Part shown: positions 35,757 to 51,271 of the stretch, one piece after another
How positions within the stretch are numbered: position 1 is the stretch's first letter
How the letters are laid out: the number at the start of each line of letters is the position of its first letter
Assembly: GCF_020177335.1 (NCBI RefSeq)
Contig: NZ_JAIVMG010000008.1
Coordinates: 124,001-188,000, forward strand
Source: Stappia indica
GTDB lineage: Bacteria; Pseudomonadota; Alphaproteobacteria; Rhizobiales; Stappiaceae
Length of the DNA: 64,000 bases
Direction: 5' to 3'
Notes under the pieces: generated by a model
Told to the model about the DNA's origin: nothing
The model's database searches: none
Seen by the model: the letters and a program-made list of their open reading frames with translations, nothing else
Position numbers and translations under genes: made by a program

Positions 35757-35771
35757 GGTGACCTTGTCACC
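35757..35771. promoter_or_regulatory. Island palindrome, copy 1
   Basis: GGTGACCTTGTCACC, a perfect 6-bp inverted repeat around three bases, 53 bp upstream of the membrane protein gene at 35825. It is one of four similar 15-mers (also 41086, 44635 and 51257) upstream of transcription units in the 34-53 kb block. Confidence 0.65.
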
Positions 35772-35824
35772 CGCCCTCCGCGCGAAGCTGTGTCAAGAGT
35801 GCTCCATCAAGCAGGAGCATCGCC

Positions 35825-37033
35825 ATGTCCATGATTCGCAGACCGGCCGACAACTGGGCCCCTCTCTACCTTCTCTCCTCTGTCGGGGCGGGCGGCCTTG
35901 CTGTCTCGTTCTTCATGTATCTGCTCTTCTGGGTGCCGCATCCCGGACGCGCCGTTCCGATCTTCGAGGACATCGCCGCAGCATTCGGCAAGGCGTCGCC
36001 TCTTCTGGCCACGGCGATCCTCGCCGCGGTGGCCGGCATCGCGATCTTCGGTGCCATGAACCTCTACCTCCTAGTCTGGAACCTCCGCCGCGTCGGCGCC
36101 TTCTTGGCGTCCGAAAAGGGACGGATGCTTGCAGGAGCCAACGCCCAGACCCAGATGATGACCCTGCCGCTGGCGCTTGCGATGTCGGTCAACGTCGGCT
36201 TCATCCTCGGCCTCGTCTTCGTTCCGGGTCTCTGGTCCGTCGTCGAGTACCTGTTCCCGGCGGCGATGGCCGCGTTCCTTGCCATCGGCGTGCTGGCCTT
36301 CCGGCAACTCGGCGGGTTTCTCGCCCGCGTCATCGGTGCCGGCGGTTTCGACTGCAAGGCCAACAATTCCTTCGCCCAGCTGATGCCCGCCTTCGCGCTC
36401 GGGATGGTTGGGGTCGGCCTTGCCGCTCCCGGTTCGATGAGCGCGACCGCGCTAACGGCGGGTGCGTCGATCATACTGTCGACCTTCTTCCTCGTCGCCG
36501 CCGTCCTGATCGCCGCGGTCGCACTGACCCTCGGCGTCCGCTCGATGCTGGAGAACGGTGTCGCCGTCGAGCAGGCGCCGACGCTCACGATCGTCGTGCC
36601 GCTGATGACGGTGCTCGGCATCCTCGTCCTGCGGCAGGATCACGGGCTCCACGTCCATTTCGGGGGACACGGCGGCGCCGGCGACATGCTGGTGACCCTG
36701 TCGTGGTTTATCTCGGTCGAAATCCTCTTCGCGCTCTTCGGCCTCACGATCCTGCGCGCGACGGGGTATCTGCGCCGCTTCATCATCGGATCCGAGACCT
36801 CGGTCGGCAGCTATGCGCTGATCTGCCCAGGCGTCGCGCTGTCGGTAATGGGGCACTTCTGGATCAACAAGGGCCTCGTCGCGGCCGGGCTGATCGCGAA
36901 ATTCGGGGTGGCCTACTGGATGCTGACCGGCCTCGCGCTCGCAGTCCAGGCGGCCATGGTCGTGCTACTCCTCGTGCTCAATCGGCGCCACTTCCTCAGC
37001 GCGGCCCGGACCCCGGTCGTTCCTGCCGAGTGA
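35825..37033 (+). CDS. Multi-pass membrane protein next to cyd genes (TsoY-like?)
   Basis: A 402-residue protein with about ten hydrophobic helices evenly spread through it. A His-rich loop, LRQDHGLHVHFGGHGGAGD, near residues 262-280 could bind metal. I recall similar proteins beside Crp and cydDC genes in Rhodobacterales, named TsoY-like, but cannot confirm this; its overall layout also resembles SLAC1/TehA-type or NrfD-type membrane proteins. The start follows AGGAG. It is first in a run with the Crp/Fnr, cydD and cydC genes on the same strand. Substrate and activity are unknown. Confidence 0.7.
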   Translation: MSMIRRPADNWAPLYLLSSVGAGGLAVSFFMYLLFWVPHPGRAVPIFEDIAAAFGKASPLLATAILAAVAGIAIFGAMNLYLLVWNLRRVGAFLASEKGRMLAGANAQTQMMTLPLALAMSVNVGFILGLVFVPGLWSVVEYLFPAAMAAFLAIGVLAFRQLGGFLARVIGAGGFDCKANNSFAQLMPAFALGMVGVGLAAPGSMSATALTAGASIILSTFFLVAAVLIAAVALTLGVRSMLENGVAVEQAPTLTIVVPLMTVLGILVLRQDHGLHVHFGGHGGAGDMLVTLSWFISVEILFALFGLTILRATGYLRRFIIGSETSVGSYALICPGVALSVMGHFWINKGLVAAGLIAKFGVAYWMLTGLALAVQAAMVVLLLVLNRRHFLSAARTPVVPAE

Positions 37034-37045
37034 CTCGGAACCTCG

Positions 37046-37070
37046 GCCCGGCGCTCTTCATGCGCCGGGC
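37046..37070 (+). other. Intercistronic hairpin before crp-like gene
   Basis: GCCCGGCGC (37046-37054) and GCGCCGGGC (37062-37070) form a perfect 9-bp stem with a 7-nt loop, between the membrane protein stop and the ribosome site of the Crp/Fnr gene. No T-run follows. It may be a processing or partial termination site that sets different levels of the two genes. Confidence 0.5.
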
Positions 37071-37086
37071 AGGACGGAGATCAGAC

Positions 37087-37788
37087 ATGCATTGCGATCT
37101 TGATATCCGGGCCCGTCCCGATCCTGCGGTTCTGGAGAACGCCGTGGTCAAGGCGGGTGGCATCGCGCACGTGGCCGAGGCCGGCGCGACAGCCTTTCGC
37201 TGGCACGGCTTGCCGGAGGCCTTCGTGCTCCTTCGGTCCGGACGAATCACGGTCCGTTTCCGCACGAAACGGGCCGGCTTGCCATGGGCGGAATGCCGGG
37301 CATTCGCGGGGCAGGATTGCATGCCAGTCTCTGCGGCGATCCTGTCCGGCTCCCCGATCACGGTGCAGGCTGTCTGCCTTGAGCCGTCGACCTGGCACGA
37401 ACTCGAACCGCAGGCCTTCATCCGTCTCGTCGGGGAAGATCCGGCCTTTCGGGCCGCCCTTTTTGCCGGACATGCGGCGCGTCTTCCACGGTTTTTCAGG
37501 CGCATCTCCGAAAAGGGCGTCGAGACGACTGACCAGAGGCTCGCGGCATGGCTGATTGCGCAGGGACAGGGCAACCCGATCGTCGCGACACATCGCGAGA
37601 TCGCCGTGGATCTGGTGACAGCGCGCGAAGTCGTGTCGCGGCGTCTGAAGTGCTTTGCCGACAAGGGGTGGATCCTGCAGGCCAGGGGCCGTATCGAGGT
37701 CGTGGCACAGGGGGCCCTCTCGCGTGTTGCGCGAGGCTCGTCAACCTGGTGCGTGTCGGGTAGACAGACAAGGCGCGACATGCGCTGA
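37087..37788 (+). CDS. Crp/Fnr family transcriptional regulator
   Basis: A 233-residue regulator with an N-terminal cNMP-binding-like domain (about 25-130) and a C-terminal winged helix with THREIAVDLVTAREVVSRRLKCFADKGWI near residues 167-195. The cyclic-nucleotide phosphate cassette is missing; its place is taken by FAGQDCMPVSAAIL, with Cys near residue 79 and another in VQAVCLEP. There is no FNR-type four-cysteine cluster. It could sense redox or sulfur species by cysteine thiols, or bind no ligand. It lies between the membrane protein and cydD and is a natural candidate to control the cyd genes. Confidence 0.88.
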   Translation: MHCDLDIRARPDPAVLENAVVKAGGIAHVAEAGATAFRWHGLPEAFVLLRSGRITVRFRTKRAGLPWAECRAFAGQDCMPVSAAILSGSPITVQAVCLEPSTWHELEPQAFIRLVGEDPAFRAALFAGHAARLPRFFRRISEKGVETTDQRLAAWLIAQGQGNPIVATHREIAVDLVTAREVVSRRLKCFADKGWILQARGRIEVVAQGALSRVARGSSTWCVSGRQTRRDMR

Positions 37789-37815
37789 TCGCCATTCAGA
37801 ACTGACTCGAAATCA

Positions 37816-39492
37816 ATGCCCAGGAAAAAAGCCCCCGAGCATGCTGTGTCCTCACAGCGGCAAAGGGCAAGACAACGCATCATCCTGCCGGTGTCCGGGG
37901 ACCTGAAGGCCGCCGGGCGTCTTGCCGTGCTCGCGGGGTTGCTCTGGCCGGTTCAGGCCGCCGCCATCGCCTGGGCGGTCTCGGGATGGGTCGAGGGCGA
38001 GGTCGAGCCGGCCCACACGCTTGGCGCCGCACTCGCCTTCCTGCTTGCCGGCTTGGTGCGGGCGATCCTCGACCATCGGGCCGGGGCGCTCCTGTTCCGG
38101 GCGGCCGATGCGACGATCGCGCGTGAGCGTGCCGCGATGATCCGGCGCGAGGCACGGGCGACCGCCGGGATCGGATCTGCGGCCGTCGCGTCGCTGGTCG
38201 TGCAAAAGCTGCCGCTGCTGCAGCCCTGGATCACCCGCTACCATGTAGCGATGATGCGGGTGTCGGTCCTGCCGCTGGTGCTTCTTGCCCTGTCCTTTTC
38301 CCTGTCCTGGGTCGTCGGGCTAACGCTGCTGGTCGCCGGGCCGCTGATCCCGGTTTTCATGGCGCTGGTCGGCATGGCCGCCGAAGAGGCGTCGCGGCGG
38401 CAGATGGACGAGATCGGCAGCATGAACGACATGCTGATGGACCGGCTTTCCGCACTGACGGACATCCGGCTTCTGGGCGCATCCGAGCGGGCGACGGTCG
38501 ATTTCGCGGTGCGGGCCGAGGCACTGAGGGTCCGGACCATGGCCGTGCTCCGCATCGCATTTCTCTCCTCGACGGTGCTCGAGCTGTTTTCGGCCATCGG
38601 CGTGGCGCTGGTCGCGGTCTTCGTCGGATTCACGCTTCTGGGTGAGATCGGGTTCGGCAGCTGGGGCAGTCCGCTAACGCTCGGCGAGGGGCTGTTCCTC
38701 TTGCTGATCGCCCCCGAGTTTTTCCAGCCGCTGCGCGACCTTTCGGCGGCCTGGCACGACCGGGCCGCCGGATATGCCGTAGTTGCCGATCTCGATGCAC
38801 TCGACGCGGCCGAACGGGCCTCGATGGTCGGGAGCGGCGAAGAGGCCGAACCGCTGGCGGGGGCGTTCTCGCTCCGGACGGAGGCCGCCGTCGCGGCGCT
38901 GCCGGGGCGAGAGGTGACGCTGCCGGACATCGTGCTCGGGCCGGGGGACGCGCTGGCCATCATCGGGCCGAGCGGTGCGGGCAAGACCACGGTTCTGGCT
39001 GCCATCGCCGGGCTGGTGCCGCTGGCGGCGGGGCGGATTTCCGTTTGCGGCAGCGCGCTGGGAAGCGGGACGGCGGACGGCTGGCGCCGCCGCATCGCTT
39101 TCGTCCCGCAGCGGGTGCATTTCGCGGACATGCCGCTGGGCGATTGGCTCGATCCGCGTGGGACTGGCGCCGACCCCTGGGCGGCGCTGCGGCTCGCCGA
39201 CGCCGAGGGGATCGTGGACCGTCTGCCCGAGGGGCTGGCGACACGGCTGGGCGAGACCGGCGGCGGCGTGTCGGGCGGCGAAGCGCGGCGGTTGATGCTG
39301 GCGCGGGCGGTCATGGAAGGCGGCGACCTGATCCTGGCGGACGAGCCGACCGCCGATCTCGATACCGAGACCGCTACCCGGATTATCGCGGCGCTCGACC
39401 GCGTCCGGGGCGAAGGACGGGCGATCCTCGTGGCGACCCACGACCCGGCCTTGGCGGCGGTCATGGACAGACAAGTGGCGATGAGCGCATGA
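37816..39492 (+). CDS. cydD: Cysteine/glutathione ABC exporter, subunit CydD
   Basis: A 558-residue half-transporter with six membrane helices and a C-terminal ATPase. CydDC exports cysteine and glutathione to the periplasm and is required for cytochrome bd assembly. The ATPase part shows Walker A GPSGAGKTT near residue 384, the ABC signature VSGGEARRLMLARAV near 475 and Walker B LILADEPTADLDTE near 497, with VATHDPA as the H-loop. The membrane part has the family sequence RRQMDEIGSMNDMLMDRLSALTDIRLLGA. It overlaps cydC by 4 bp (ATGA), and the two subunits act as a heterodimer. Confidence 0.93.
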   Translation: MPRKKAPEHAVSSQRQRARQRIILPVSGDLKAAGRLAVLAGLLWPVQAAAIAWAVSGWVEGEVEPAHTLGAALAFLLAGLVRAILDHRAGALLFRAADATIARERAAMIRREARATAGIGSAAVASLVVQKLPLLQPWITRYHVAMMRVSVLPLVLLALSFSLSWVVGLTLLVAGPLIPVFMALVGMAAEEASRRQMDEIGSMNDMLMDRLSALTDIRLLGASERATVDFAVRAEALRVRTMAVLRIAFLSSTVLELFSAIGVALVAVFVGFTLLGEIGFGSWGSPLTLGEGLFLLLIAPEFFQPLRDLSAAWHDRAAGYAVVADLDALDAAERASMVGSGEEAEPLAGAFSLRTEAAVAALPGREVTLPDIVLGPGDALAIIGPSGAGKTTVLAAIAGLVPLAAGRISVCGSALGSGTADGWRRRIAFVPQRVHFADMPLGDWLDPRGTGADPWAALRLADAEGIVDRLPEGLATRLGETGGGVSGGEARRLMLARAVMEGGDLILADEPTADLDTETATRIIAALDRVRGEGRAILVATHDPALAAVMDRQVAMSA

Positions 39493-41090
39493 GCCAGGTT
39501 CTTCGGATCGTTCGCCGTCTTGTCGGTGCCGCGCCCTGGGCCATGGCACGAGGCGCGGCGCTGTCGGTCGTGGTGCTCGTCATGGGCGCGGCGCTTCTGG
39601 GCCTTTCCGGCTGGTTCATCACCGCCACAGGCATCGCGGGGCTGGCCGGAGTCGGTATCGCCTTCGACGTTTTTCGTCCCTCGGCCGGGGTGCGCTTCCT
39701 TGCGCTCGGCCGGACGGCGGCCCGCTATGGCGAGCGGCTTCTGACCCATGACGCCATTCTGCGGGCGCTGGCGGCGCTGCGGGTGGCGATCCTGCGGCGG
39801 CAGGCCGGCCTTGACGCCTGGGCGCTGGCGCGGCTCAGGGGCGAGGCGGTGCTGACCCGGATGATCTCGGACGTGGACGCGCTGGACGGGCTGGTGCTGC
39901 GCGTCCTGCTTCCGTCCGCGGCTGCGCTGTTGACTCACAGCGTGGTCTTTGCAGTGCTGGTCTGGCTGGCCGGTCTCCCGGTCGCTTTGGCGATTGCCGG
40001 TCTCTATCTGCCCGCGGCCGTCCTCGTGCTCTGGGCGCTCGCGCGGCGGACGCAAGGCCCTTCGGATGCCGCCGAACAAGGAGCCCAGCACCTGCGGCGT
40101 GGACTGATCGACATGATCCGCGACCGGGAGGCGCTGATCCTGACGGGCAGGCTCGACGTGCGGGAACGCGACCTAATGGGGCTGGACGCGGCCGTCCGGG
40201 CAGAAACGACCGGGCTCGACCGGATCGAGCGTAGCGCCGGCGCCCTGCTGTCCGTCATCGCCACATTGGCGGCCACCGGGGCGTTTCTCGCCGGCGGCTG
40301 GATGCTGGCAGAGGGCCGGGTCGACCCAGCGACGGCCGTGATTGGCCTGTTCGTCGCGCTGGCGCTGGCCGAGACGATCCTGCCGCTTCGGCGAGGGTTT
40401 GCGGACCTCGGGCGGATAAGCGGTGCGGCGCGGCGTGTGGGCCCGGCAATAGCTGATCTTTCCATCGTCGAGAGACCGCCCCTGAACAATGCGCCCGTTC
40501 TGCGGATCACGCGGCCTGACCTGTCCCTCACCCTCGCGCCCGGCGAGGCGCTGGCGCTGACCGGCCCGTCCGGCGCCGGCAAGAGCACGCTGCTTCTGGC
40601 CATCGCGGGGCTGTTGCCCGCGGACGGCATCACCATCGGCGGGCGCCCCCCGGATGCCTGGAGCGAGGCGTCCTTCCGCACTCGCGTCGCGCTTCTTCCG
40701 CAACGTAGCGCGCTGATCGCCGGCACGATCCGCGAGAACCTATGCCTCGCGGGGGGCTTCAGCGACGCGGAATTCTGGGCCTCGCTGGAGGCGGCCCAGC
40801 TCGCGGGCACGATCCGCGCGCGTGGCGGGCTGGACGAACGCCTGGGTGAAGGCGGGCACGGCCTCTCGGGTGGGCAGGCCAGACGCCTGGCGCTGGCGCG
40901 CTGCCTGCTGCGCCGACCCGATCTGCTGGTCCTGGACGAGCCGACCGAAGGGCTCGACGATGCCACTGCCGCAGCACTGCTCGGTAGCATCCGCAGGTAC
41001 CTGCCCCGTGCAGCCATCCTTGTTGCGCTGCATCGCGGTGCCGATCATCCTGTCTTCGACCGGATCTGCCGTCTCGACGGACTTCGGTGA
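39489..41090 (+). CDS. cydC: Cysteine/glutathione ABC exporter, subunit CydC
   Basis: A 533-residue partner of CydD with the same layout: six-helix membrane domain and ATPase domain. Walker A is GPSGAGKSTLLLAIAGLLP near residue 360, the signature LSGGQARRLALARCLLRRP near 460, and Walker B LLVLDEPTEGLDDAT near 480. The conserved CydC region SGVRFLALGRTAARYGERLLTHDAILRAL is at about 65-95 (ours reads PSAGVRFLALG). It starts at an ATGA overlap with cydD. Its stop codon lies inside the second copy of the island palindrome, so cydA has its own control point. Confidence 0.93.
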   Translation: MSQVLRIVRRLVGAAPWAMARGAALSVVVLVMGAALLGLSGWFITATGIAGLAGVGIAFDVFRPSAGVRFLALGRTAARYGERLLTHDAILRALAALRVAILRRQAGLDAWALARLRGEAVLTRMISDVDALDGLVLRVLLPSAAALLTHSVVFAVLVWLAGLPVALAIAGLYLPAAVLVLWALARRTQGPSDAAEQGAQHLRRGLIDMIRDREALILTGRLDVRERDLMGLDAAVRAETTGLDRIERSAGALLSVIATLAATGAFLAGGWMLAEGRVDPATAVIGLFVALALAETILPLRRGFADLGRISGAARRVGPAIADLSIVERPPLNNAPVLRITRPDLSLTLAPGEALALTGPSGAGKSTLLLAIAGLLPADGITIGGRPPDAWSEASFRTRVALLPQRSALIAGTIRENLCLAGGFSDAEFWASLEAAQLAGTIRARGGLDERLGEGGHGLSGGQARRLALARCLLRRPDLLVLDEPTEGLDDATAAALLGSIRRYLPRAAILVALHRGADHPVFDRICRLDGLR

Positions 41091-41100
41091 CGAAATCACC
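41086..41100. promoter_or_regulatory. Island palindrome, copy 2 (upstream of cydA)
   Basis: GGTGACGAAATCACC, overlapping the last codons of cydC and 98 bp upstream of cydA. It differs from the perfect palindrome at one position. It suggests separate control of cydABX from cydDC. Confidence 0.65.
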
Positions 41101-41198
41101 AAACCGATGACCGTGATGATGCTAATCGGCATTCACGCGCTGACCATTGCGAGTCGCCGGGCGACTGCGCTCTGCGCAATAGAATAGGAGATCACGAC

Positions 41199-42866
41199 AT
41201 GGAGCTCGATATTGTCGAGCTGTCACGCCTGCAATTCGCGATGACGGCGATGTATCACTTCCTCTTCGTGCCGCTGACGCTGGGCCTGTCGATCCTCGTC
41301 GCGATCATGGAGACCGTCTACGTCATGACGGGCCGGCCCATCTGGCGGCAGATGACGAAATTCTGGGGCACGCTCTTCGGCATCAACTTCGTGCTGGGCG
41401 TCGCCACCGGCATCACCATGGAATTCCAGTTCGGCATGAACTGGAGCTATTACAGCCATTACGTCGGCGACATCTTCGGCGCGCCGCTGGCCATCGAGGG
41501 CCTGATGGCCTTCTTCCTGGAAGCGACCTTCGTGGGCCTCTTCTTCTTCGGCTGGGATAAGCTGAGCCGGGTCCAGCATCTCGTTGTCACCTGGCTGGTC
41601 GCGATCGGCTCGAACTTCTCGGCGCTCTGGATCCTCATCGCCAACGGCTGGATGCAGAACCCGGTGGGCGCCTCGTTCAACCCCGACACGATGCGGATGG
41701 AGATGGACAGCTTCTTCGAGGTGCTGTTCAACGAGGTCGCGCAGGCCAAGTTCGTCCATACCGTCAGCGCGGGCTATGTCACCGCCTCGGTCTTCGTGCT
41801 TGGCGTCTCGGCCTGGTATCTGCTCAAGAACCGCCACACGGCTCTGGCCCGCCGCTCGATCACCGTCGCCGCCGCCTTCGGCCTGGCCTCGGCCCTGTCG
41901 GTCGTCGTGCTCGGCGATGAAAGCGGCTACTCGGCCAGCCACACGCAGCGGATGAAGCTTGCCGCGATGGAAGGCATGTGGGAAACCCATCCGGCGCCTG
42001 CGCCTTTCACCGCCTTCGGCATTCCCGACGTCGAAGCCCGCGAGACGCATTACGCGGTCGAGATCCCCTGGGTGATGGGCCTGATCGGCACCCGGTCGCT
42101 GGCCAGCGAAATCCCCGGCATCAACGATCTTGTCGACGAGGCCGAGGTGCGCATCCGCTCGGGCATCGTCGCCTATGACGCGCTGATGACGATCCGCGAG
42201 CAGCGGGGCGACACCCCTGCCAAGGTGCGCGAGACGTTCGAGGCCCATTCTGACAACCTCGGCTTCGCCTTCCTGCTCCTGCGCTACATGGACGATCCGC
42301 GCGATGCGACGCCCGAGCAGATCGCGATGACGGCGACCGATACGATCCCGGGCGTCCTGCCGCTGTTCTGGGCCTTCCGGGTGATGGTCGGCCTCGGCTT
42401 CGCCTTCATCGGCGTGATGGTCTATTTCTTCTGGCGGTCGTCCTTCAGGCAGCAGAGCTATCCGCGCTGGGCCTTGCGGCTTGCCGTGGCGATCATCCCG
42501 GCGCCTTGGATCGCGGCCGAGCTCGGCTGGTTCGTGGCCGAATACGGTCGCCAGCCCTGGACGGTGGACGGCGTTCTGCCCACCGCGCTGTCGGTCAGCC
42601 ACCTCAGCGTGCAGGACCTGCTGCTGACGCTGGCGGGCTTCGTGACCATCTACACCATCCTCTTCATCGTCGAGATGGGCCTGATGCTGAAATACATCCG
42701 CAAGGGCCCGTTCCAGGATGTCGAGGAAACCGAAGCCTGGGAGGCGCGGCACGAACATCGTCTGCGCACCCATGACGGACAGGGCCCCTTCGCCCCGGCC
42801 GGCGCCCGCGCCGCCTCGGCGGTGGACGACGGCTTCTCCGGTTCCAAGCCCACGCCTGCGGAGTAA
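41199..42866 (+). CDS. cydA: Cytochrome bd ubiquinol oxidase subunit I, long Q-loop type
   Basis: A 555-residue haem-carrying subunit. The N-terminal [24 protein letters not shown] has the haem-ligand His. A long Q-loop (about residues 265-390, with [20 protein letters not shown] and many charged residues) precedes [12 protein letters not shown] and [16 protein letters not shown]. This L-type subunit, with adjacent cydDC and cydX, is the classical bd-I arrangement, unlike the CIO copy at 17154. It oxidises quinol at low oxygen and is resistant to sulfide and NO. It is the first gene of cydABX. Confidence 0.96.
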
Positions 42867-42871: not shown

Positions 42872-44035
42872 ATGATCCTCTATGAACTTATCTCCTACGA
42901 CGTCCTGCGGGTCATCTGGTGGCTTCTGCTCGGCGTGCTGCTGATCGGCTTCGCGCTGACCGACGGTTTCGACATGGGGGTTGGCGCGCTTCTACCCTTC
43001 GTAGGCAAGACCGACATCGAGCGGCGCGTGGCCATCAACACCGTGGGGCCGGTCTGGGAAGGCAACCAGGTCTGGTTCATCCTCGGCGGTGGCGCGATCT
43101 TCGCCGCCTGGCCGCCGCTCTATGCGGTCAGCTTCTCTGGCTTCTACCTCGCCATGTTTGCCGTCCTCGCGGCCCTGATCCTGCGCCCGGTGGCGTTCAA
43201 ATATCGTTCCAAGCGCGACAGTGCGGCCTGGCGTTCGGGCTGGGATTGGGCGCTGTTCGTCGGCGGAGCGGTTCCCGCGCTGATCTTCGGCGTGGCGGTC
43301 GGCAACGTCCTGCAGGGCGTGCCGTTCGAGCTGACGCCGGACCTCTTCTCGCGCTACGAGGGCAGCTACTACGGTAAGTTCTTCGGCCTCCTGAACCCCT
43401 TCGCCCTTCTGACCGGCGTAGTTTCTCTGGCTATGCTTGTGACGCACGGCGCCGCCTGGCTGTCCCTTAAGGCCGAGGGGCCGGTCGCGGCACGGGCGCG
43501 GGCCATCGGGTCCGTCACCGGACTCGTGACAATCGGCGGCTACGTGCTTGCCGGCCTCTGGCTCGCCCTCGGGATTGATGGCTATGCCATCGTCGGCGAC
43601 GTGATCACCGACGGGCCGTCGAACCCGCTCTATTCGGACGTCGAGCGCACGGGGTCGTGGCTGTCAGCCTATACGGCGCGTCCCTGGATCGCCATCGCGC
43701 CGATCCTGGCGCTGGTGGGCATGAGCCTTGCCGTGATGGGGCTGCGGGCGGGACGCGAGGTCTCGACGCTGCTCTGGTCCAAGCTCGGCATCTTCGGCGC
43801 AATCTCCAGCGTCGGGCTCACGATGTTTCCCTTCATCCTGCCCTCGTCGCTCGACCCGCGCTCGTCGCTGACGGTCTGGGACGCGTCGTCCTCGCATCAG
43901 ACGCTTTTCATCATGCTTGTGGTGACTGCGATCTTCATGCCCTTGATCCTCGCCTACACCGCCTGGGTCTACAAAGTGCTCTGGGGCAAGGTGACCGAGA
44001 AAGACGTCACCGGCAATTCGCACACCGTCTACTGA
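42872..44035 (+). CDS. cydB: Cytochrome bd ubiquinol oxidase subunit II
   Basis: A 387-residue subunit with eight or nine helices that pairs with CydA. Family signatures are [61 protein letters not shown]; a second set near residue 330 reads [20 protein letters not shown]. The length is that of E. coli CydB (379). It starts six bases after cydA and is followed 14 bases later by cydX. Confidence 0.96.
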
Positions 44036-44049: not shown

Positions 44050-44187
44050 ATGTGGTATTTCGCTTGGCTTCTAGGCCTGCCGCTCGCCGCCATCTTCGCC
44101 GTGATGAACGCCATGTGGCTGGAGTTGCAGCGCGACCGGGTGCTTGCCGATGAACACGAAGACCGCCCGCTCGCGGTCAGGGACTGA
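44050..44187 (+). CDS. cydX: Cytochrome bd small subunit CydX
   Basis: A 45-residue protein with one helix. MWYFAWLLGLPLAAIFAVMNAMWLE matches the conserved CydX pattern (MWYFAWILGxxLAxxFxxxNAxWxE), followed by a short charged tail. CydX sits beside CydA and is needed for oxidase stability. AGAGGGG lies upstream. Confidence 0.93.
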   Translation: MWYFAWLLGLPLAAIFAVMNAMWLELQRDRVLADEHEDRPLAVRD

Positions 44188-44193: not shown

Positions 44194-44217
44194 GGGCCGG
44201 TCCGAAGGGGCCGGCCC
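44194..44217 (+). terminator. Terminator after cydX
   Basis: A 10-bp GC-rich stem with one G-T pair: GGGCCGGTCC (44194-44203) with GGGCCGGCCC (44208-44217), starting seven bases after the cydX stop and followed by GGTCTTCT. Confidence 0.6.
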
Positions 44218-44299
44218 GGTCTTCTGCAGCGGCATTCGACACGGCCGCAAGTTGGAAAGGGCGCAACCGATCATGACCTGCAGGGAAAAATAGCACGAC

Positions 44300-44613
44300 A
44301 TGCGGGGCGAACTCCGCGCGCTCTACAAGGCTGTCCCGGAAGCCGCCTAGGCCTTCGGCGAACTGGGCAAGGCCGTCAAGGACACTGGTGTTCTCGGTCA
44401 CAAGGAAAAGGATCTGGTTGTCATCGGCATGGCCGTAGTCCTGCGCTGCGAGCCCTGCATCACGACCCATGTCGATGCCCTACGAGGGGCGGGGCGACCC
44501 GCGAGGAGCTGGCCGGCGTGATCGCCATGGCGATCCAGATGAGCGCAGGGCCGAGGCTCATGTATGGCGCGAAGGCGCTGGCCCGTTGGGACGAGTTTTC
44601 CGCCGAGGGATGA
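44300..44613 (+). pseudogene. Carboxymuconolactone decarboxylase family pseudogene
   Basis: A broken CMD/AhpD-like gene. MRGELRALYKAVPEAA ends at an in-frame TAG (44348-44350). The frame then reads AFGELGKAVKDTGVLGHKEK and DLVVIGMAVVLRCEPCITTHVDAL, including the CxxC motif. After a shift near 44480, GATREELAGVIAMAIQMSAGP and RLMYGAKALARWDEF run to a TGA at 44611. Two lesions show that it is not functional. It lies between the cydX terminator and sqr. Confidence 0.8.
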
Positions 44614-44634
44614 TCTTTCGCTGCCGGCCCGTTC

Positions 44635-44649
44635 GGTGACCAAGTCACC
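44635..44649. promoter_or_regulatory. Island palindrome, copy 3 (upstream of sqr)
   Basis: GGTGACCAAGTCACC, a perfect 6-bp inverted repeat around three bases, 102 bp upstream of the sulfide:quinone oxidoreductase gene and just after the CMD pseudogene. Confidence 0.65.
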
Positions 44650-44751
44650 GTTCCGCAACCCGGACCGAGATAGACTATCGCATACAGAATCGGCAGCTGA
44701 CTCGCGTATCCCATGCGGTGCCTGCCCCGGCGCATGTAAGGAGGAGCCGCC

Positions 44752-46053
44752 ATGAAACGTAGAGACTTCCTGTCCTTGGCCGCGCTCGGTGCCGCTGCAG
44801 CGGCTGCTCCACTGCGCCGGGCAGACGCCGCGCCCAAACCAGTCGCGACCTCGGCCCATATCGTCATCGTCGGGGCCGGGGCGGGTGGAACGGCACTTGC
44901 CAACCGACTTGTCCGTCGTCTGGACGGCGCGCGGATCACGATCATCGACCCGCGGACGACTCATATCTACCAGCCGGGCCTGACGCTGGTCGCGACGGGT
45001 CTGAAGCCTGCAGACTACGTCATCTCGGACGAGGCTCGCTGGCTTCCCAACGGCGTGGAGTGGATCCAGAGCCGCGTCGCTGCGGTCGACGCCGAGGCGG
45101 AGACCGTCTCGACCGAGGATGGGACCGATATCGCCTATGACTGGCTCGTGCTGGCTCCCGGACTTGTGCTCGACTATGGCGCGATCTCGGGTTTCAGCGA
45201 GGATCTGATCGGCACAAACGGCATCGGCGCGCTTTATGGTGGTCCTGACGCGGCCGCGCGGACCTGGGCCGCGGCGCAGCGCTTTACCGAAGAGGGTGGG
45301 CGCGGAGTCTTCACCCGGCCAGCGACCGAGATGAAATGCGCGGGCGCGCCGCTCAAGCACACCTTCCTGATCGACGACATCGCCCGCCGCGCGGGCAACA
45401 GCGACAAGCTAGAGATGCTCTATGCCGCGCAGAACGACACACTCTTCGGTGTGCCAATCGTCAGCGAGAAGGTGCGGATGCTGTTCGAGGATCGCGGGAT
45501 TGAGCCGGTTTATTCGCATGTCCTGAGCGCCATTGATCCGGGCGCAAAGCGCGCCACCTTCGCGACACCAGAGGGCAGCGCCGAGATCGACTACGACTAC
45601 ATCCACGTCATCCCGCCGCAGCGCGCGCCGGATTTCATCCGCTCCTCTGGCCTGTCCTGGGCAGACAAATGGACCGATCAGGGCTGGGTCGAGGTCGACA
45701 TGGCGACACTGCGTCACCTGCGCTATCCCGAAATCTTTGCGCTTGGCGATGTGGCCGGCGTGCCAAAGGGCAAGACCGCCGCTTCGGTCAAATGGCAGGT
45801 GTCTGTGGTCGAGGATCATCTTGTCGCGGCAATAGACGGGCGCGAAGGGACCGAGACCTATGACGGCTACACCTCTTGCCCGCTGATCACCCGCATCGGT
45901 CGGGCGATGCTGGTCGAATTCGACTATCACGACAACCTTGTTCCCAGCTTCCCCGGCATGATCGCCCCGCTGGAGGAACTCTGGATCAGCTGGCTGATGA
46001 AGGAGGTGGCGCTGAAGGCCACCTACAACGCCATGCTGCGTGGCGATGCCTGA
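44752..46053 (+). CDS. sqr: Sulfide:quinone oxidoreductase, type II (mitochondrial type)
   Basis: A 433-residue FAD protein that oxidises sulfide to persulfide and passes electrons to quinone. The FAD-binding HIVIVGAGAGGTALANRL begins near residue 35. The two catalytic cysteines are in EMKCAGAPLKHTF near 198 and DGYTSCPLITRIGRAMLVEFDY near 380; both segments closely resemble human SQOR (KCAGAPQK and YTSCPLV). LRHLRYPEIFALGDVAGVPKGKTAA is the second FAD motif. The N terminus, MKRRDFLSLAALGAAAAAAP, looks like a Tat signal, so the protein may be exported folded with FAD. AGGAGG precedes the start. It is followed closely by a DUF5368 gene. The product persulfide could go to the MBL hydrolase at 51667. 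Confidence 0.9.
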   Translation: MKRRDFLSLAALGAAAAAAPLRRADAAPKPVATSAHIVIVGAGAGGTALANRLVRRLDGARITIIDPRTTHIYQPGLTLVATGLKPADYVISDEARWLPNGVEWIQSRVAAVDAEAETVSTEDGTDIAYDWLVLAPGLVLDYGAISGFSEDLIGTNGIGALYGGPDAAARTWAAAQRFTEEGGRGVFTRPATEMKCAGAPLKHTFLIDDIARRAGNSDKLEMLYAAQNDTLFGVPIVSEKVRMLFEDRGIEPVYSHVLSAIDPGAKRATFATPEGSAEIDYDYIHVIPPQRAPDFIRSSGLSWADKWTDQGWVEVDMATLRHLRYPEIFALGDVAGVPKGKTAASVKWQVSVVEDHLVAAIDGREGTETYDGYTSCPLITRIGRAMLVEFDYHDNLVPSFPGMIAPLEELWISWLMKEVALKATYNAMLRGDA

Positions 46054-46065
46054 GGAGGACGCGAG

Positions 46066-46431
46066 ATGAAAGATCTGACCTTCCAGACCCTGATCGCCGT
46101 CTTCGAGGAAATCTTCGGCAGATGGCTGTTCTGGGCGATGGTGGCGGCGGCGGTTCTGGTCACACTGGCCTATATCTATGTCTTGATCCGTGACCGTTCC
46201 GTCAGTTGGCGGAAGTTTCTTCTGGCGCAACTCTCGATGCCTGTCGGCGCCGTCGCCGCCGTCTGGTTCGTGATGGCGATGACTCATTCGCACCTTTCGG
46301 ATATCGGCGGACCGGTCGACGTGATCGTGTTTCTCGGTGTGGCCGTGGCAGGCGCGGTTGGAATGGCGATCTTTGTCTATACCGTCGAGGCGCTGCTGGG
46401 CAGTGACCGAACCAAGGGCGATAGGGCCTGA
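46066..46431 (+). CDS. DUF5368 family small membrane protein
   Basis: A 121-residue protein with three membrane helices near residues 20-42, 52-72 and 84-106. A conserved-looking AMTHSHLSDIGGPVDV loop lies between the second and third. It belongs to a family I know only as DUF5368, commonly placed next to SQR-like flavoprotein genes. It starts 12 bp after sqr, so the two are co-transcribed. A membrane anchor or transport partner for SQR is possible but unproven. Confidence 0.8.
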   Translation: MKDLTFQTLIAVFEEIFGRWLFWAMVAAAVLVTLAYIYVLIRDRSVSWRKFLLAQLSMPVGAVAAVWFVMAMTHSHLSDIGGPVDVIVFLGVAVAGAVGMAIFVYTVEALLGSDRTKGDRA

Positions 46432-46484
46432 TTGAAGATGGGGCCTCGCGTCCGGCCGGGCCCCGCAAAAGAAGGAGAAAGAGA

Positions 46485-46970
46485 ATGTCCAACGAAAAGA
46501 TCGTCGAATACCTGCAACGTGCGTTGAAGATGGAACTGAGTGCCGCGCATCAGTATCAGCTTCACGCCCATACGCTGGACGATTGGGGGCTGACGAAACT
46601 CGCCGCGCAGATGCGCGAGGAGATGACCGAGGAGTTGGGCCATTCCGACATGTTCATCGAACGGCTCATGTTCCTGAAGGCGGCGCCGGATATGGGTTTC
46701 GACGCGACCCCGAAAAAGGCCGAAACCCTGCCGGCGATGTTCAAGGCCGATCTGGCTGACGAAGAAGAGGCCATCGACTATTATACAAAAGCTGCACAGC
46801 ATGCGGCCGAAATCGGCGATATCGGGACCCGCACATTGTTTGAGAAAATCGTGCTGGACGAGGAAGGTCACAAATCCTGGCTGGAACTTCAGCTTGACCT
46901 GATCGAACGGCTTGGCGAAAAAACATACAGTTCCAAGCTGGTTTCCTTCGGTCACGATGAAGACGACTAG
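46485..46970 (+). CDS. bfr: Bacterioferritin-like protein
   Basis: A 161-residue four-helix ferritin-like protein of bacterioferritin length. The ferroxidase residues are visible: Glu in MELSAAHQYQLHA near 18, EELGHSDMFIERLMF near 49-52, EEEAIDYYTKA near 94 and DEEGHKSWLELQ near 127. In E. coli Bfr the haem is bound by Met52 in EMKH; here the aligned sequence is ELGH, so the methionine is Leu and haem binding is doubtful. It would store iron and consume peroxide. A strong AAGGAG precedes the start. It sits between the DUF5368 and SLAC1 genes in the same run. Confidence 0.88.
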   Translation: MSNEKIVEYLQRALKMELSAAHQYQLHAHTLDDWGLTKLAAQMREEMTEELGHSDMFIERLMFLKAAPDMGFDATPKKAETLPAMFKADLADEEEAIDYYTKAAQHAAEIGDIGTRTLFEKIVLDEEGHKSWLELQLDLIERLGEKTYSSKLVSFGHDEDD

Positions 46971-46982
46971 GGAAATACGACA

Positions 46983-47951
46983 ATGACGGTCGTGGCTGAA
47001 ACACCCCCGGAGCCGGCACGGCTGGAGCACTTTCCGATCAGCTTCTTCGGAATGGCGATGGGGCTGTTCGGCCTGACGCTTGCGCTTCGCGCGGGCGGAT
47101 GGACGGCAGCCTCGGCTGCGACTGGCTGGGTGTCACTTGCGGTGCTGATCCTGCTGGGGGCTCTCTACGCGGCGAAGGCCGTGCGCCACCCTTCTGCCGT
47201 CGCGGAGGAATGGAACCATCCTGTCCGGCTGGCTTTCTTCCCCGCCATCTCGATTTCTGTGCTGCTGCTGGCGACCTTCCTACGCGATCTGGCGCCCGGT
47301 GCGGCCCAGGTTGTGTGGGTCGTGGGTGCTGCCGTTCAAGGTGTTCTGACGCTCGTCGTCATCACCACCTGGATTTCGCACCGCGCATTCGGGCCAGGAC
47401 AGCTTTCGCCGGCCTGGTTTATTCCCGCTGTCGGGAACGTTGTCGTACCGCTCGCCGGGGCACCGCTTGGCCATATCGAGATCAGCTGGTATTTTTTCTC
47501 GGTCGGTCTGGTCTTTTGGCTTGTCCTGCTGACGCTGGTCTTCAATCGCCTGATCTTTCACGATCCGCTGCCGGGCAAGCTGCGGCCGACCCTCGTGATC
47601 CTCGTCGCGCCGCCGGCGGTCGCTTTCCTCGCCTGGCTTCAGTTAAACGGCGGCCAGATCGATGCCACCGCCCGGATCCTCCTGGACGTAGCGTACTTCT
47701 TCACCCTGCTCGTTGCAATCCAGGTCCCGGCGCTGCTGCGGCTACCCTTCGCGCTGTCCTTCTGGGCGCTGTCATTCCCGCTCGCCGCCGTGACGATCGC
47801 CAGCTTTCGCTTCGCAGAGAAGATGGGCTCTGCAGTGCATTCTGTTATCGGGCAGACCCTGCTGGCGGTGCTTGCCGTTACCATTGCGGGCCTGCTGTTG
47901 CGCACGATCCGTGCCGCGATGGCGCGCGAGATCTGTCAGCCAGAGGGCTGA
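46983..47951 (+). CDS. SLAC1 / TehA family anion channel
   Basis: A 322-residue membrane protein with ten helices. Family motifs are the N-terminal FPISFFGMAMGLFGLTLAL and the mid-protein WFIPAVGNVVVPLAGAPLG near residue 145. SLAC1/TehA proteins are ungated or regulated channels for monovalent anions; bacterial relatives are also annotated as tellurite-resistance or C4-dicarboxylate transporters. In this setting, exit of HS-, sulfite or similar anions is conceivable. It starts 12 bp after the bacterioferritin gene and overlaps the convergent oxyR gene by 16 bp at its 3' end. Confidence 0.88.
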   Translation: MTVVAETPPEPARLEHFPISFFGMAMGLFGLTLALRAGGWTAASAATGWVSLAVLILLGALYAAKAVRHPSAVAEEWNHPVRLAFFPAISISVLLLATFLRDLAPGAAQVVWVVGAAVQGVLTLVVITTWISHRAFGPGQLSPAWFIPAVGNVVVPLAGAPLGHIEISWYFFSVGLVFWLVLLTLVFNRLIFHDPLPGKLRPTLVILVAPPAVAFLAWLQLNGGQIDATARILLDVAYFFTLLVAIQVPALLRLPFALSFWALSFPLAAVTIASFRFAEKMGSAVHSVIGQTLLAVLAVTIAGLLLRTIRAAMAREICQPEG

Positions 47952-48856
47952 TCCGAGCGCTCCCGGAGTGACCGGCGTGCCTCGATCAGCGCATCGGCGA
48001 TCCTGTGGTAGGTTGCGGCTTGTGCGGACGATGCCCGCCAGGCCAGCGCGATCCGACGCGGACAGGCGTCGGGAAGGGCACGCAATTCCAGCGCATGGCC
48101 CCGCGCGGCCCCTGCGTCCAGCGCGAGCTCCGGCAGGAGCGTGATGCCAAGTCCCTCCTCGACCATGGCAATCAGGGTCGGCAGCGACGTAGCCGCGAAA
48201 CTCTGATCCTCGTCGAGCCTCACCTCGGGAAAGCTCGACAGGGCGTGGCGCTGCAGGCAATGGCCTGACTCCAGCAGCAGCAGCGCGCGGGAGGCCAGGT
48301 CCGTGCCTTTGACCGCAGGCGCGCAGGCCAGCGGATCGGTCGGTGGCGCGGCAAGGCGATAGCCGTCCAGAAACAGCTCCTCGGTGACGACCTGGGCGGG
48401 GAGCGCGTAAGGCAAGGCGATCAGGATCAGATCAAGCCGGCCCTCCACAAGCCCGAAGATGAGGGCTTCGGTCAACTCTTCCCGCAGATAGAATGCCGCA
48501 CCCGGAAAAGCGGCCCGCAGAAGCGGCATTGCCCGCGGCATCAGGAAGGGGCCAATCGTCGGTATCGTGCCGAACCGGATATGGGTCGCCCCCGTGGCGT
48601 CCTGTCTGGCGCGATCCTCGAAATCCTCGACCCGGGCCAAGATGTCCCGCGCCCGCGCTGCTAGATCGGTGCCAAGCGGGGTCATCAGAACGGAGTGCTT
48701 CGTCCGCTCGGCAACCTGTATGCCCAAGCGCTCTTCAAGCTCCTTCAGGCCGGTCGACAGGGTGGATTGCGTGACATGACAAAGATCGGCCGCACGGGAA
48801 AAATTGCCGGTGGCGTCGAGCGCGGTCAGGAAGCGAAGCTGGCGGAGTGTGGTCAT
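47936..48856 (-). CDS. oxyR: LysR family hydrogen-peroxide regulator OxyR
   Basis: A 306-residue LysR regulator. The N-terminal HTH is LRQLRFLTALDATGNFSRAADLCHVTQSTLSTGLKELEERLG. The effector domain has the OxyR peroxidatic cysteine in LLLLESGHCLQRHAL near residue 199, and FAATSLPTLIAMVEEGLGITLLPELA matches OxyR closely. In E. coli the resolving Cys208 lies nine residues after Cys199; here HALSSFPEV holds no Cys. Sensing must therefore use a single thiol or another partner. It is divergent from a 1-Cys peroxiredoxin gene, its likely target. Confidence 0.88.
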   Translation of the reverse strand: MTTLRQLRFLTALDATGNFSRAADLCHVTQSTLSTGLKELEERLGIQVAERTKHSVLMTPLGTDLAARARDILARVEDFEDRARQDATGATHIRFGTIPTIGPFLMPRAMPLLRAAFPGAAFYLREELTEALIFGLVEGRLDLILIALPYALPAQVVTEELFLDGYRLAAPPTDPLACAPAVKGTDLASRALLLLESGHCLQRHALSSFPEVRLDEDQSFAATSLPTLIAMVEEGLGITLLPELALDAGAARGHALELRALPDACPRRIALAWRASSAQAATYHRIADALIEARRSLRERSDQPSG

Positions 48857-48879
48857 GGTGATTGATTTATTCGATCACC
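48857..48879. promoter_or_regulatory. Inverted repeat in oxyR / prx control region
   Basis: GGTGATTGA (48857-48865) and TCGATCACC (48871-48879) match at 8 of 9 positions around TTTAT, immediately next to the oxyR start codon. An ATTGAT...ATCAAT pair at 48861 and 48892 overlaps it. This is a likely OxyR self-control site that also faces the peroxiredoxin promoter. Confidence 0.55.
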
Positions 48880-48956
48880 AGTTATGATACAATCAATTTC
48901 CAAGATTTCACGAGCCGGGGTATCGAAAGCCATCACTTGGCAAAGGAGCCTCAGGA

Positions 48957-49613
48957 ATGACCGTCGAAGCGACCATGACCACCCCCACCGGCCTGCCGCG
49001 CCTGAACGAACCGGCACCGGCCTTCACCGCTCTGACCACCCACGGCACGAAGTCGCTCGCCGACTATCGAGGCAAGTGGCTGATCCTCTTCTCCCATCCG
49101 GCCGATTTCACACCGGTCTGCACCACCGAGTTCACCGCCTTCGCCCGCCGCGCCGACGATTTCGCCGCGCTCGATACCGAGCTTCTGGGCCTCTCGATCG
49201 ACAGCCACTATGCGCACATCGCCTGGGTTCGCTCGATTAAGGAGACCTTCGGCGTCGACATCCCGTTCCCGATCATCGCCGACCTCGACATGAAGGTGGC
49301 GCAGGCCTACGGCATGATCCAGCCGGGCGCATCCGACACCCAGGCAGTCCGCGCCACCTTCGTCATCGACCCCGAAGGCGTTCTGCGTGCCATGGTCTAT
49401 TACCCGATGACCAACGGCCGCTCGGTCGATGAATTCCTGCGTCTCGTGCGGGCGTTGCAGACCTCGGTCAAGCACAAGGTGGCAACGCCCGAGAACTGGC
49501 ACCCCGGCGAGGACGTGATTGTGCCGACGCCGCAGACGACCGACGCGGCCGAGGCGCGGATGCACGAAGGCCTCCAGACGAAGGACTGGTATTTCTCAAC
49601 TCGCGCACTTTGA
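48957..49613 (+). CDS. 1-Cys peroxiredoxin (Prx6 type)
   Basis: A 218-residue peroxiredoxin that reduces peroxides. The peroxidatic Cys is in SHPADFTPVCTTEFTAF near residue 54, in the conserved PxxxT/SxxC form. The long C-terminal region (YYPMTNGRSVDEFLRLVRALQ, TPENWHPGEDVIV) is typical of the Prx6 group. No resolving cysteine is present. Divergent from oxyR, and the classical OxyR-Prx arrangement suggests peroxide induction. Ends at a strong hairpin. Confidence 0.93.
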   Translation: MTVEATMTTPTGLPRLNEPAPAFTALTTHGTKSLADYRGKWLILFSHPADFTPVCTTEFTAFARRADDFAALDTELLGLSIDSHYAHIAWVRSIKETFGVDIPFPIIADLDMKVAQAYGMIQPGASDTQAVRATFVIDPEGVLRAMVYYPMTNGRSVDEFLRLVRALQTSVKHKVATPENWHPGEDVIVPTPQTTDAAEARMHEGLQTKDWYFSTRAL

Positions 49614-49620
49614 TGATATG

Positions 49621-49656
49621 CGTTCCAGCGTATCTCGAATGCGCTGGAACGTCTTT
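49621..49656 (+). terminator. Terminator after peroxiredoxin
   Basis: CGTTCCAGCG (49621-49630) pairs perfectly with CGCTGGAACG (49642-49651), a 10-bp stem with an 11-nt loop, followed by TCTTTG. It starts eight bases after the peroxiredoxin stop. Confidence 0.65.
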
Positions 49657-49676
49657 GCCCGGACTGGAGACTTCGA

Positions 49677-50348
49677 ATGACGCCTGATGCTGACTGGATC
49701 GATCGCTTTATCGGCCTGAAGAAATTGCCGGCCGAGATCCGCGCCGATCTCGTCGCGGGAAGTCAGGTGGTGTCTCTGCCCACGGGAACGCCGGTCTTCG
49801 CGCCAGGGCAGTCGGCCGACAATCTGCTTCTGCTGCTCGATGGAACGGTCCGGGTGCAGCAGAAGTCCGAGACCGGGCGCGAGATCTTCCTCTATCGCGT
49901 CCATGCCGGCGAGAGCTGCGTGCTGACGACGGCCTGCATGCTTGCGTTCGAGGAATATTCGGCGGACGGTCTCGCGGAGACGGATGTCACCGCCGTGGCA
50001 ATTCCCCGGACGACCTTCGACGCGCTGGTGGCGCGGTCGCCGGTGTTCCGCCAGTTCGTGTTCACCTCCTATTCGCGGCGGATCATCGATCTGTTCACGC
50101 TGATTGATGACATCGTCTTTCAGAAGATGGATGTGCGACTGGCCTCGCGGCTCCTGGAACTCGCCGATGACGCACAGGTCGTGCATGCCACCCATGCCAC
50201 CCTCGGTACCGAACTCGGCACCGCGCGCGAGGTCATCTCGCGCACGCTGGCCGAATTCCAGCGCCGCGGTTGGGTCGAACAATCGCGCGGGGAGGTGCGC
50301 CTGATCGGGCGACCAGGTCTGGAGCGGCTGGTGCGTTCCGCGGGCTGA
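49677..50348 (+). CDS. Crp/Fnr family transcriptional regulator
   Basis: A 223-residue regulator with a cNMP-like sensor domain and a C-terminal HTH (HATHATLGTELGTAREVISRTLAEFQRRGWVEQ, near 168-200). In the sensor, the usual cyclic-nucleotide cassette is replaced by HAGESCVLTTACMLAFEEYSADG, with two cysteines near residues 80 and 86. This parallels GQDCMPVSAAIL in the other Crp-like protein at 37087. GGAGA precedes the start. A thiol- or persulfide-sensing role is possible. It is followed by a DUF3422 pseudogene. Confidence 0.88.
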   Translation: MTPDADWIDRFIGLKKLPAEIRADLVAGSQVVSLPTGTPVFAPGQSADNLLLLLDGTVRVQQKSETGREIFLYRVHAGESCVLTTACMLAFEEYSADGLAETDVTAVAIPRTTFDALVARSPVFRQFVFTSYSRRIIDLFTLIDDIVFQKMDVRLASRLLELADDAQVVHATHATLGTELGTAREVISRTLAEFQRRGWVEQSRGEVRLIGRPGLERLVRSAG

Positions 50349-50389
50349 TCCATGGCAGAGATTGTCTCCCGCAACGCTGGCAGTGGTCA

Positions 50390-51210
50390 TTCGGAGGTTG
50401 GCGGCTGAAGTGGGAGAGCCATATTGAGGTCGTGACACTCCTGGCCTGGCGTCCGGGCGAGTTGTGCCCGGAGGAACCCTGTCCGACGCTGGATCCCAGA
50501 TGGCTCGCTTCGACGCCAGGGCATGTGCCGGTATCGGCGCAAATTGCGGTCGAGATGGATGCCGGCGATCCTCGGCTTTTGTCCCGGCTGGATGAGATCT
50601 TCACCGATCCGACATCGGCCACGGCGCATCGGCCGGATGGTGCAGCGGCTCTGCGAGATCGAAACCTGTCGTGCGCTCGCCATGCTTGGCGCTCTTGCGC
50701 TCGCGGGAACTCGGTCCCGAGTTTGAGCAAGTCGAATCTGATCTATCCCGTCTGTCGCAGGACATGACCCGGGGGCTCCGTCGGTCGAGAGGCTTGAGGC
50801 ACTGCTCGCCGTCGCCGGCCGGGTCGAGGCCCTGTCCAGCCGTTCGATGTTCGGTTTTCGGCGAGTGCTGCCTATGAGGGGCTGGTGGCGGACAGGATCG
50901 GGGGCCTGCGCGAGCGAAGGTTCCAGGGGCGCCAGACCTTCGAGGAATTCATGACGCACCGCTTCGACCCGGCAATACGGACCACCGCATCGACACGCGC
51001 GCCGACTTGTCGCGCAAGCTTCAGCATACCGTCGAGGGAGTGAGCATCATCGCCATCGCCTATTATGTGACCGGACTTGCGCTTCATGTAGCGGGTTCGG
51101 TGATCTAGGCGCGGCATCTGCCGAAGTCCTGGGTTGCCGCGGCGCTCGTGCCACTCGTGCTGCTGGCGACCTGGGGCGGCCTCGCCCGGCTCCGTCGCGG
51201 GGGGCACTGA
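50390..51210 (+). pseudogene. DUF3422 family pseudogene
   Basis: Decayed DUF3422 gene. The first recognisable part is RLKWESHIEVVTLLAWRPGE and PVSAQIAVEMDAGDPRLLSRLDEIFTDPTS (about 50400-50615). After a gap and frame changes, SAAYEGLVADRIGGLRERRFQGRQTFEEF appears at 50860-50950. The end, LSRKLQHTVEGVSIIAIAYYVTGLALHV, at 51005-51090 is the typical DUF3422 C-terminal region; it reaches a TAG at 51106 and continues as membrane-like sequence to 51210. Several frameshifts, a deletion and a stop show that it is not functional. Confidence 0.78.
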
Positions 51211-51256
51211 GCGGCTTGCCGTCCGCTCTCGGCACCTCGTGGCATGCTGCGGCGCC

Positions 51257-51271
51257 GGTGATGAAGTCACC
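51257..51271. promoter_or_regulatory. Island palindrome, copy 4 (upstream of DUF2892/MBL operon)
   Basis: GGTGATGAAGTCACC, one mismatch from a perfect 6-bp inverted repeat, 58 bp upstream of the DUF2892 gene. It completes the set with 35757, 41086 and 44635. Confidence 0.65.

Follow-up and report, generated by a model that had tools for sequence, protein, structure and literature searches.

A palindrome with five-base half-site spacing, very probably the docking site of a little-studied Crp-type protein at sulfide and bd oxidase genes of Stappia indica

The persulfide regulators described in the available passages of PMC9774590 are CstR, SqrR/BigR and FisR. SqrR and BigR are ArsR-type repressors that control sqr or Blh-type persulfide dioxygenase genes and sense sulfur through two cysteines (excerpts of PMC9774590 and PMC5823870), and FisR is a sigma-54-dependent, Fis-family activator of sulfide-oxidation genes that reads reactive sulfur through three cysteines (PMC9774590, same passages). 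According to the accessible sections of PMC7315123, sulfide induces cydAB in A. baumannii, with earlier reports for E. coli and M. tuberculosis. Here we consider a window, that is, the whole stretch of 64,000 nucleotides of Stappia indica that was analysed (contig NZ_JAIVMG010000008.1, positions 124,001 to 188,000), in which four copies of a 15-bp palindrome lie within a 15.5 kb block containing cyd, sqr and persulfide-dioxygenase-like genes. By sequence comparison, the four palindromes are very probably docking sites of a little-studied Crp-type protein, called Crp2 below, and the pairing recurs in many bacteria. We give roughly three chances in four to the reading that the palindrome is the operator of Crp2, and that Crp2 is a class II activator which senses sulfane sulfur and joins the sulfide and bd oxidase units.

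Crp2 resembles the CRP/FNR regulators (CRP, FNR, FixK, NnrR) in its domains, fold, recognition residues and GTGA half-site and in the predicted class II position of that site, but differs from them in a spacing of five bases between half-sites (N5) instead of six (N6), in the absence of a four-cysteine cluster, in the cAMP-contacting Glu and Arg, which are not conserved, and in its sulfur-related targets. The sites of FNR and NnrR are N6-spaced in the available parts of PMC2908626 and PMC6710368. With SqrR/BigR the proposed regulator would share its target genes and two-cysteine sensing, whereas it is a Crp/Fnr protein with a layout suggesting activation; with FisR it would share activation and cysteine-based sensing, but not the family, the three cysteines or the sigma-54 dependence. 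RedB of Rhodobacter capsulatus is likewise a recent (2022) CRP/FNR subgroup from Rhodobacterales, whose motif is a non-palindromic AT-rich 12-mer and whose regulon is energy metabolism, Crp2 being compared with it by description only (available text of PMC9603854). The best solved-structure sequence match to Crp2 (E 6e-42), and also its top fold match, is PDB 3dv8 (EUBREC_1222 of Eubacterium rectale), the cysteines of which align with C81 and C87 of Crp2 and the title of which names a putative regulator without known function. In the open-licence literature we found no description of the operator, or of a Crp/Fnr protein linked to both DUF2892 and sulfide regulation, which is not proof of absence.

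The strict pattern GGTGAY-N3-RTCACC (GGTGAYNNNRTCACC) occurs four times in the window, exactly at the positions given in an earlier note on this DNA, and a window scan revealed no further exact copy. The comparison with random DNA proposed in that note places the motif far above the shuffles, with a mean of 0.02 copies per shuffled window and none of 100 shuffles containing four or more. The sites and genes concerned are the following, with scores from the matrix described below; distances run from the end of the site to the start codon and agree with the 53-102 bp of the earlier note.

35755..35773, + strand: operator 1 in its 19-bp register (core 35757-35771), 53 bp before the tsoY-like gene, matrix 17.6
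35825..37033, + strand: TsoY-family membrane protein (NF047644, 491.9 bits, cut-off 150; no Pfam match)
37087..37788, + strand: Crp1, a divergent Crp-type helix-turn-helix protein (PF13545) between tsoY and cydD
37816..39492, + strand: cydD (best match CydD, 409.4 bits, slightly below the cut-off of 435)
39489..41090, + strand: cydC (best matches are CydC models, under their cut-offs)
41084..41102, + strand: operator 2 (core 41086-41100), 98 bp before cydA, matrix 26.5
41199..42866, + strand: cydA (PF01654)
42872..44035, + strand: cydB (PF02322)
44050..44187, + strand: cydX-like frame of 45 amino acids, 87-93% identical in relatives
44633..44651, + strand: operator 3 (core 44635-44649), 102 bp before sqr, matrix 26.9
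44671..44676, + strand: candidate -10 hexamer TAGACT at the conserved distance from operator 3, which puts the palindrome centre at -41
44752..46053, + strand: sqr, flavoprotein (best NCBIfam match type III sulfide quinone reductase, under cut-off)
46066..46431, + strand: DUF5368 protein (PF17336)
46983-47951: SLAC1-family gene in the block
49677..50348, + strand: Crp2, the proposed regulator (domain resembling those that bind cyclic nucleotide monophosphates, Crp helix-turn-helix, cysteines 81 and 87, R184, E185 and R189)
51255..51273, + strand: operator 4 (core 51257-51271), 58 bp before the DUF2892 gene, matrix 17.9
51330..51542, + strand: YgaP-like transmembrane protein (DUF2892, PF11127)
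51667..52614, + strand: metallo-beta-lactamase-fold, persulfide-dioxygenase-like protein (best NCBIfam match Blh, 393 bits, below the cut-off of 625)

Operator 1 is followed by the unit of the tsoY-like gene, crp1, cydD and cydC, operator 2 by cydABX, operator 3 by sqr and the DUF5368 gene, and operator 4, about 0.9 kb downstream of the crp2 3' end, by the YgaP-like DUF2892 gene and the persulfide-dioxygenase-like gene. The complete genome (4,657,997 bases, 4.66 Mb) contains seven copies of the 15-mer, four of them within the 15.5 kb block, where independent bases would give 0.004 (1.26 per genome). The match at C21:34394 is inside a metallo-beta-lactamase gene, and those at C16:16001 and C26:5387 fall in open frames of at least 520 codons and score 11.8 and 15.9, under the 17.6-26.9 of the block sites. 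The earlier note saw no copy upstream of genes outside the block, which stands for the exact 15-mer in the window. Elsewhere in the genome, a fifth good core site (G000:C5:38327, GTGACTAGGTCAC, matrix score 26.1), deviating from the 15-mer in its outer bases, is located at a second crp2-like/DUF2892 locus. The core GTGACNNNGTCAC has four genome copies, namely two block sites, this C5 locus and the coding match on C21. Fourteen genome positions match GTGAYNNNRTCAC, and the matrix exceeds 17 in six of them (the four block sites, the C5 site and the coding C21:34394); a bigger regulon in this genome was rejected, matrix scoring of these matches leaving about five promoters. The C5 locus itself (G000:C5:38327-39019; L086, L100) consists of a second crp2-like gene, the operator, which overlaps the stop codon of that gene, and a DUF2892 gene.

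Using a Crp2 alignment, we scanned named genomes and kept the best 80 of 583 confirmed loci, which lean to close relatives and are by title mostly Rhodobacterales and other Alphaproteobacteria. GTGAY-N3-RTCAC is present in 70 of these 80 loci, and in eight of the 10 loci without a match a degenerate copy that keeps the spacing stands close to where the site is expected (matrix 2.4-22.3). The 84 matches comprise 46 located 54-74 bp before a DUF2892 gene, 10 before persulfide dioxygenase genes (pdo), 6 before cydA, one each before sqr and a tsoY-like gene, one inside crp2 and 19 without a called neighbour. For 15 of these 19 the next open frame was read, giving 13 sulfur-transport (YeeE/YedE-type) candidates, a truncated DUF2892-like start (L104) and one unclear frame (L159); of three sulfur-transport candidates compared with Pfam, one matches Sulf_transp above the gathering score and the other two match it below that score. 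At L148 the DUF2892 gene runs on the opposite strand, with the site at the upstream side of that gene; because of this arrangement, the site goes with the DUF2892 promoter and not with the crp2 3' end.

A second set of 25 loci was picked among relatives (Crp2-type genes of at least 36% identity, plus the own genome's second copy), and here the site occurs within 1.7 kb past the crp2 3' end in 22 of 25 loci, within 150 bp in 20 of those, with a DUF2892 match adjoining it in 21 of the 22. The exceptions (L072, L080 and L092) have no site after the crp2-type gene, and all three are without a DUF2892 match; L072 carries sites before cydD and cydA. For the whole phylum, we took 30 loci (29 besides the own genome) with 1.5 kb flanks from 57 genomes with a match, and 15 of the 29 have a site. 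Fourteen of these 15 sites are 55-81 bp before a DUF2892-like gene (one of the proteins was Pfam-tested and matches PF11127, the others were called by eye), the site at L249 is upstream of a SLAC1 gene, and 12 of the 15 come from genomes of another class of the phylum. The remaining 14 loci have no such site within their 1.5 kb flanks, nor was one found at five loci encoding other relatives of the Crp/Fnr type (25-30% identity). What is conserved as a unit is crp2, the site and the YgaP-like membrane gene (DUF2892), and it extends to other classes of the phylum. The DUF2892 gene appears as the most conserved target, the other predicted ones being cydA, sqr, tsoY, persulfide dioxygenase and sulfur-transport genes.

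The spacing is equally characteristic. In the 1.45 Mb of named loci, GTGAC-N3-GTCAC occurs 63 times in 57 loci, against 0-7 occurrences for the other spacings from 0 to 12, which is at least ninefold above each alternative; of 60 arrangements of these five letters compared at this spacing GTGAC is second, the mean of all except the top one being 3.4. The 29 phylum-draw loci contain 15 occurrences of GTGA-N5-TCAC and none with N6. The observation of the earlier note that the TGA-N5-TCA core is one base shorter than the classical TGA-N6-TCA is borne out at all four window sites and characterises the whole Crp2 subfamily, not just the block. Five of the 84 matches (L119:1965, L124:17697, L125:11345, L143:10587 and L141:976; one inside crp2, four without a called target) were excluded by hand, and the remaining 79 sites, all from other genomes, gave a symmetrised matrix; 75 remained without near-duplicates, and 74 of 78 with longer flanks served for the promoter analysis. 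The full operator is T-N-G-GTGAC-N-W-N-GTCAC-C-N-A, 19 bp, with T in 84% and A in 83% of sites at positions -2 and 16 and A or T as the central base in 75 of 75 aligned sites. When both strands of the window were scanned with this matrix, the four sites took ranks 1-4 (26.9, 26.5, 17.9 and 17.6), followed by a match inside cydB (15.7); the training sites score 18.3-30.9, operators 1 and 4 being slightly below that range. After mononucleotide shuffling of the 1.45 Mb, no matrix match of at least 15 was left, against 88 in the real sequence (79 training sites included). Chance or codon bias might be invoked since GGTGAC and GTCACC are ordinary codon pairs and several genome matches are coding, C21:34394 certainly, and a reversed-pattern genome control was set aside because codon bias could favour GGTGAC; the shuffles, the spacing spectrum and the fixed position before DUF2892 speak against this explanation, to which we give next to no credence, and a chance origin was rejected on the first two.

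Counting from the first base of the 13-mer, 29 of the 74 aligned sites have their best -10 hexamer beginning at position 36 or 37, compared with 4.97 for positions 35-37 in shuffled downstream sequence and 8 on the opposite side of the palindrome, and the hexamer 17 bp upstream of the -10 has at least three mismatches to TTGACA in 68 of 74. A -10 at 36 or 37 therefore puts the palindrome centre at -41 or -42. A site near -41.5 with a -10 and a poor -35 is the class II layout of Crp/FNR promoters, and this layout is found statistically over the 74 sites, at positions predicted from sequence. The geometry points, with moderate strength, to activation. The known alphaproteobacterial sulfide regulators are repressors in the passages cited (PMC9774590), and Crp2 could likewise bind as a repressor released by its signal, as SqrR and BigR do; however, a repressor needs no such spacing, with a fixed -10 distance, a centre at -41/-42 and no clear -35, and we consider repression quite unlikely.

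Crp2 matches PF00027 and PF13545 above cut-off and has PDB fold matches, as expected of the CRP/FNR family, and no ArsR model matched it among the Pfam and NCBIfam profiles, which separates it from the SqrR/BigR family. Its AlphaFold model has a mean pLDDT (predicted local distance difference test) of 91.5, with 3dv8 as the closest solved fold. R184, E185 and R189 are invariant in 80 of 80 loci and form a CRP-type R-E-x-x-x-R recognition helix; E. coli CRP contacts GTGA through R180, E181 and R185. The operator and the family of the regulator are well supported. In the alignment to GlxR (4byy) the pocket Glu and Arg, which contact cAMP in CRP-type proteins, are replaced, unlike in a cAMP-binding CRP.

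Cys81 (80/80 named loci) and Cys87 (77/80) are the sole cysteines of Crp2, and two conserved cysteines are also the mark of two-cysteine sulfane-sulfur sensors; a cluster of the FNR type, with its four cysteines, is unlikely because Crp2 has just two. In the model, Cys81 stands directly before helix 82-90 and Cys87 within it, a stretch that corresponds to the ligand-holding part of CRP. We infer that sulfane sulfur is most likely the signal, and it is the most economical one because of the kind of targets (sulfur or bd-oxidase genes). Alternatively, Crp2 might bind and activate in response to low oxygen, nitric oxide or another redox cue, given that bd oxidase genes are commonly oxygen-controlled and Crp/Fnr proteins often sense O2 or NO; the absence of a four-cysteine cluster and the sulfur character of the core targets (DUF2892, pdo and sulfur-transport genes) make such a cue possible but rather unlikely.

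Two Crp-type genes lie in the block, and Crp2, not Crp1, is likely the binder of the operator. Crp1 has no orthologue in 60 other genomes, its matches at E 1e-15 falling just at Crp2-type loci, and sites are present in loci without Crp1 (L070, L072), which is why Crp2 is the likelier binder and why Crp1 was set aside as a needed regulator. It is unlikely that the operator is read chiefly by Crp1 or by the second Crp2-like paralogue (G000:C5), alone or with Crp2: Crp1 does have the A-R-E-V-x-S-R recognition stretch in common with Crp2 and is encoded behind operator 1, and the C5 paralogue has a like site before its own DUF2892 gene, yet genomes with a C5-type paralogue only (G008, G015, G016, G021, G026, G034 and G048) have no site before cydA.

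A survey of 26 cydA loci (at least 56% identity) links the site to Crp2 itself, since cydA has a site upstream in 4 of the 6 genomes whose Crp2 is close (at least 51% identity) and in 0 of the 20 without one (Fisher p 0.001, relatedness uncorrected). The earlier note had proposed to examine conservation upstream of sqr as well as cydA: among 26 sqr loci the site is within 150 bp in two (G000, G057) and about 1.35 kb upstream in two (G036, G053), where it precedes a Sulf_transp-type gene instead (as read in the matching loci L128 and L120). Matches to GTGA-N5-TCAC about 1 kb upstream of SQR-like genes (G018, G023, G028, G030 and G033) were not counted as support; in L073, L074 and L075 (from G018, G023 and G028) the match falls inside pdo, and G030 and G033 have no strong Crp2. 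The suggestion of the earlier note that one regulator joins bd respiration and sulfide/persulfide oxidation is supported by the comparison of the three sets of loci and of cydA.

Several observations weigh against the proposed role of Crp2. Two of the 80 named loci scanned (L130 and L146) have no site, not even a degenerate one, and four of the eight degenerate copies score only 2.4-12.9. In the window, a good -10 at the conserved distance exists for operator 3 only, operators 1, 2 and 4 having weak candidates at the expected distance and operators 2 and 4 a better hexamer elsewhere, and no site was found upstream of crp2 itself. The cydA site is missing despite a close Crp2 in G028 and in G036, the latter with just 491 bp of upstream sequence; in G004, also with a close Crp2, no site lies near sqr. 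An unrelated ordering, GATCG-N3-CGATC, is as frequent as the operator core (68 in the DNA of L104-L183), perhaps through codon usage. Finally, the strict 19-mer, a blunt test that catches one of the four window sites, is present in only 35 of 57 phylum-draw genomes with a strong Crp2 and in as many as 40 of 143 without (p 1e-5); among relatives the figures are 14 of 25 with Crp2 and 7 of 36 without (p 0.004), both sets being hand-counted. The pattern is thus commoner in genomes with Crp2 but not confined to them. Three genomes of family f59 (G125, G157 and G240), none of them with a strong Crp2 match, contain 4-8 copies; a similar site may be used there by another factor. These last counts would also suit a palindrome that belongs to an unrelated factor encoded elsewhere, its closeness to crp2 being gene-order inheritance; the site-crp2 adjacency kept across classes, the fit of the half-site to the CRP-type residues and the absence of cydA sites where a close Crp2 is absent make this very unlikely.

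Two further features accompany the block. Between cydX and operator 3 (44243-44632), two frames together resemble an AhpD/carboxymuconolactone-decarboxylase-like gene broken by a stop codon within it and a shift of frame. A small frame at 52643-52918 has no Pfam or NCBIfam match; about 50 of its residues align, at 69-75% identity, within longer SQR-like proteins of related loci.

In the mechanism that we propose, each subunit of a Crp2 dimer would contact a GTGA half-site through its CRP-type recognition helix (R184, E185, R189), with 5 bp between GTGA and TCAC where classical sites have 6, and C81 and C87 would read sulfane sulfur in the form of persulfide or polysulfide. From a site centred at about -41/-42, with a -10 but no clear -35, Crp2 would act as a class II activator of the DUF2892-pdo unit. 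In this lineage it would switch on sqr, cydABX and tsoY-crp1-cydDC as well, and the sulfide-resistant bd oxidase would then rise together with sulfide oxidation and persulfide removal. A wider proposal, for which we see the balance as level, is that a phylum-wide Crp/Fnr subfamily of two-cysteine sulfane-sulfur sensors activates class II promoters through TGA-N5-TCA, that crp-operator-DUF2892 is the ancestral unit, and that bd oxidase genes were recruited in some Alphaproteobacteria. The operator shorter by one base may insulate the subfamily from the CRP, FNR and FixK sites of the same cell.

The Crp/Fnr family serves as a textbook example of how operators are recognised; if the proposal is true, a large subfamily with five-base spacing would make it possible to test directly how half-site distance is set in the family and how cross-talk is avoided. 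It would also add a type of regulator beside SqrR/BigR, CstR and FisR for the detoxification of sulfide and persulfide, and would explain the joint rise of bd oxidase and sulfide oxidation in some bacteria.

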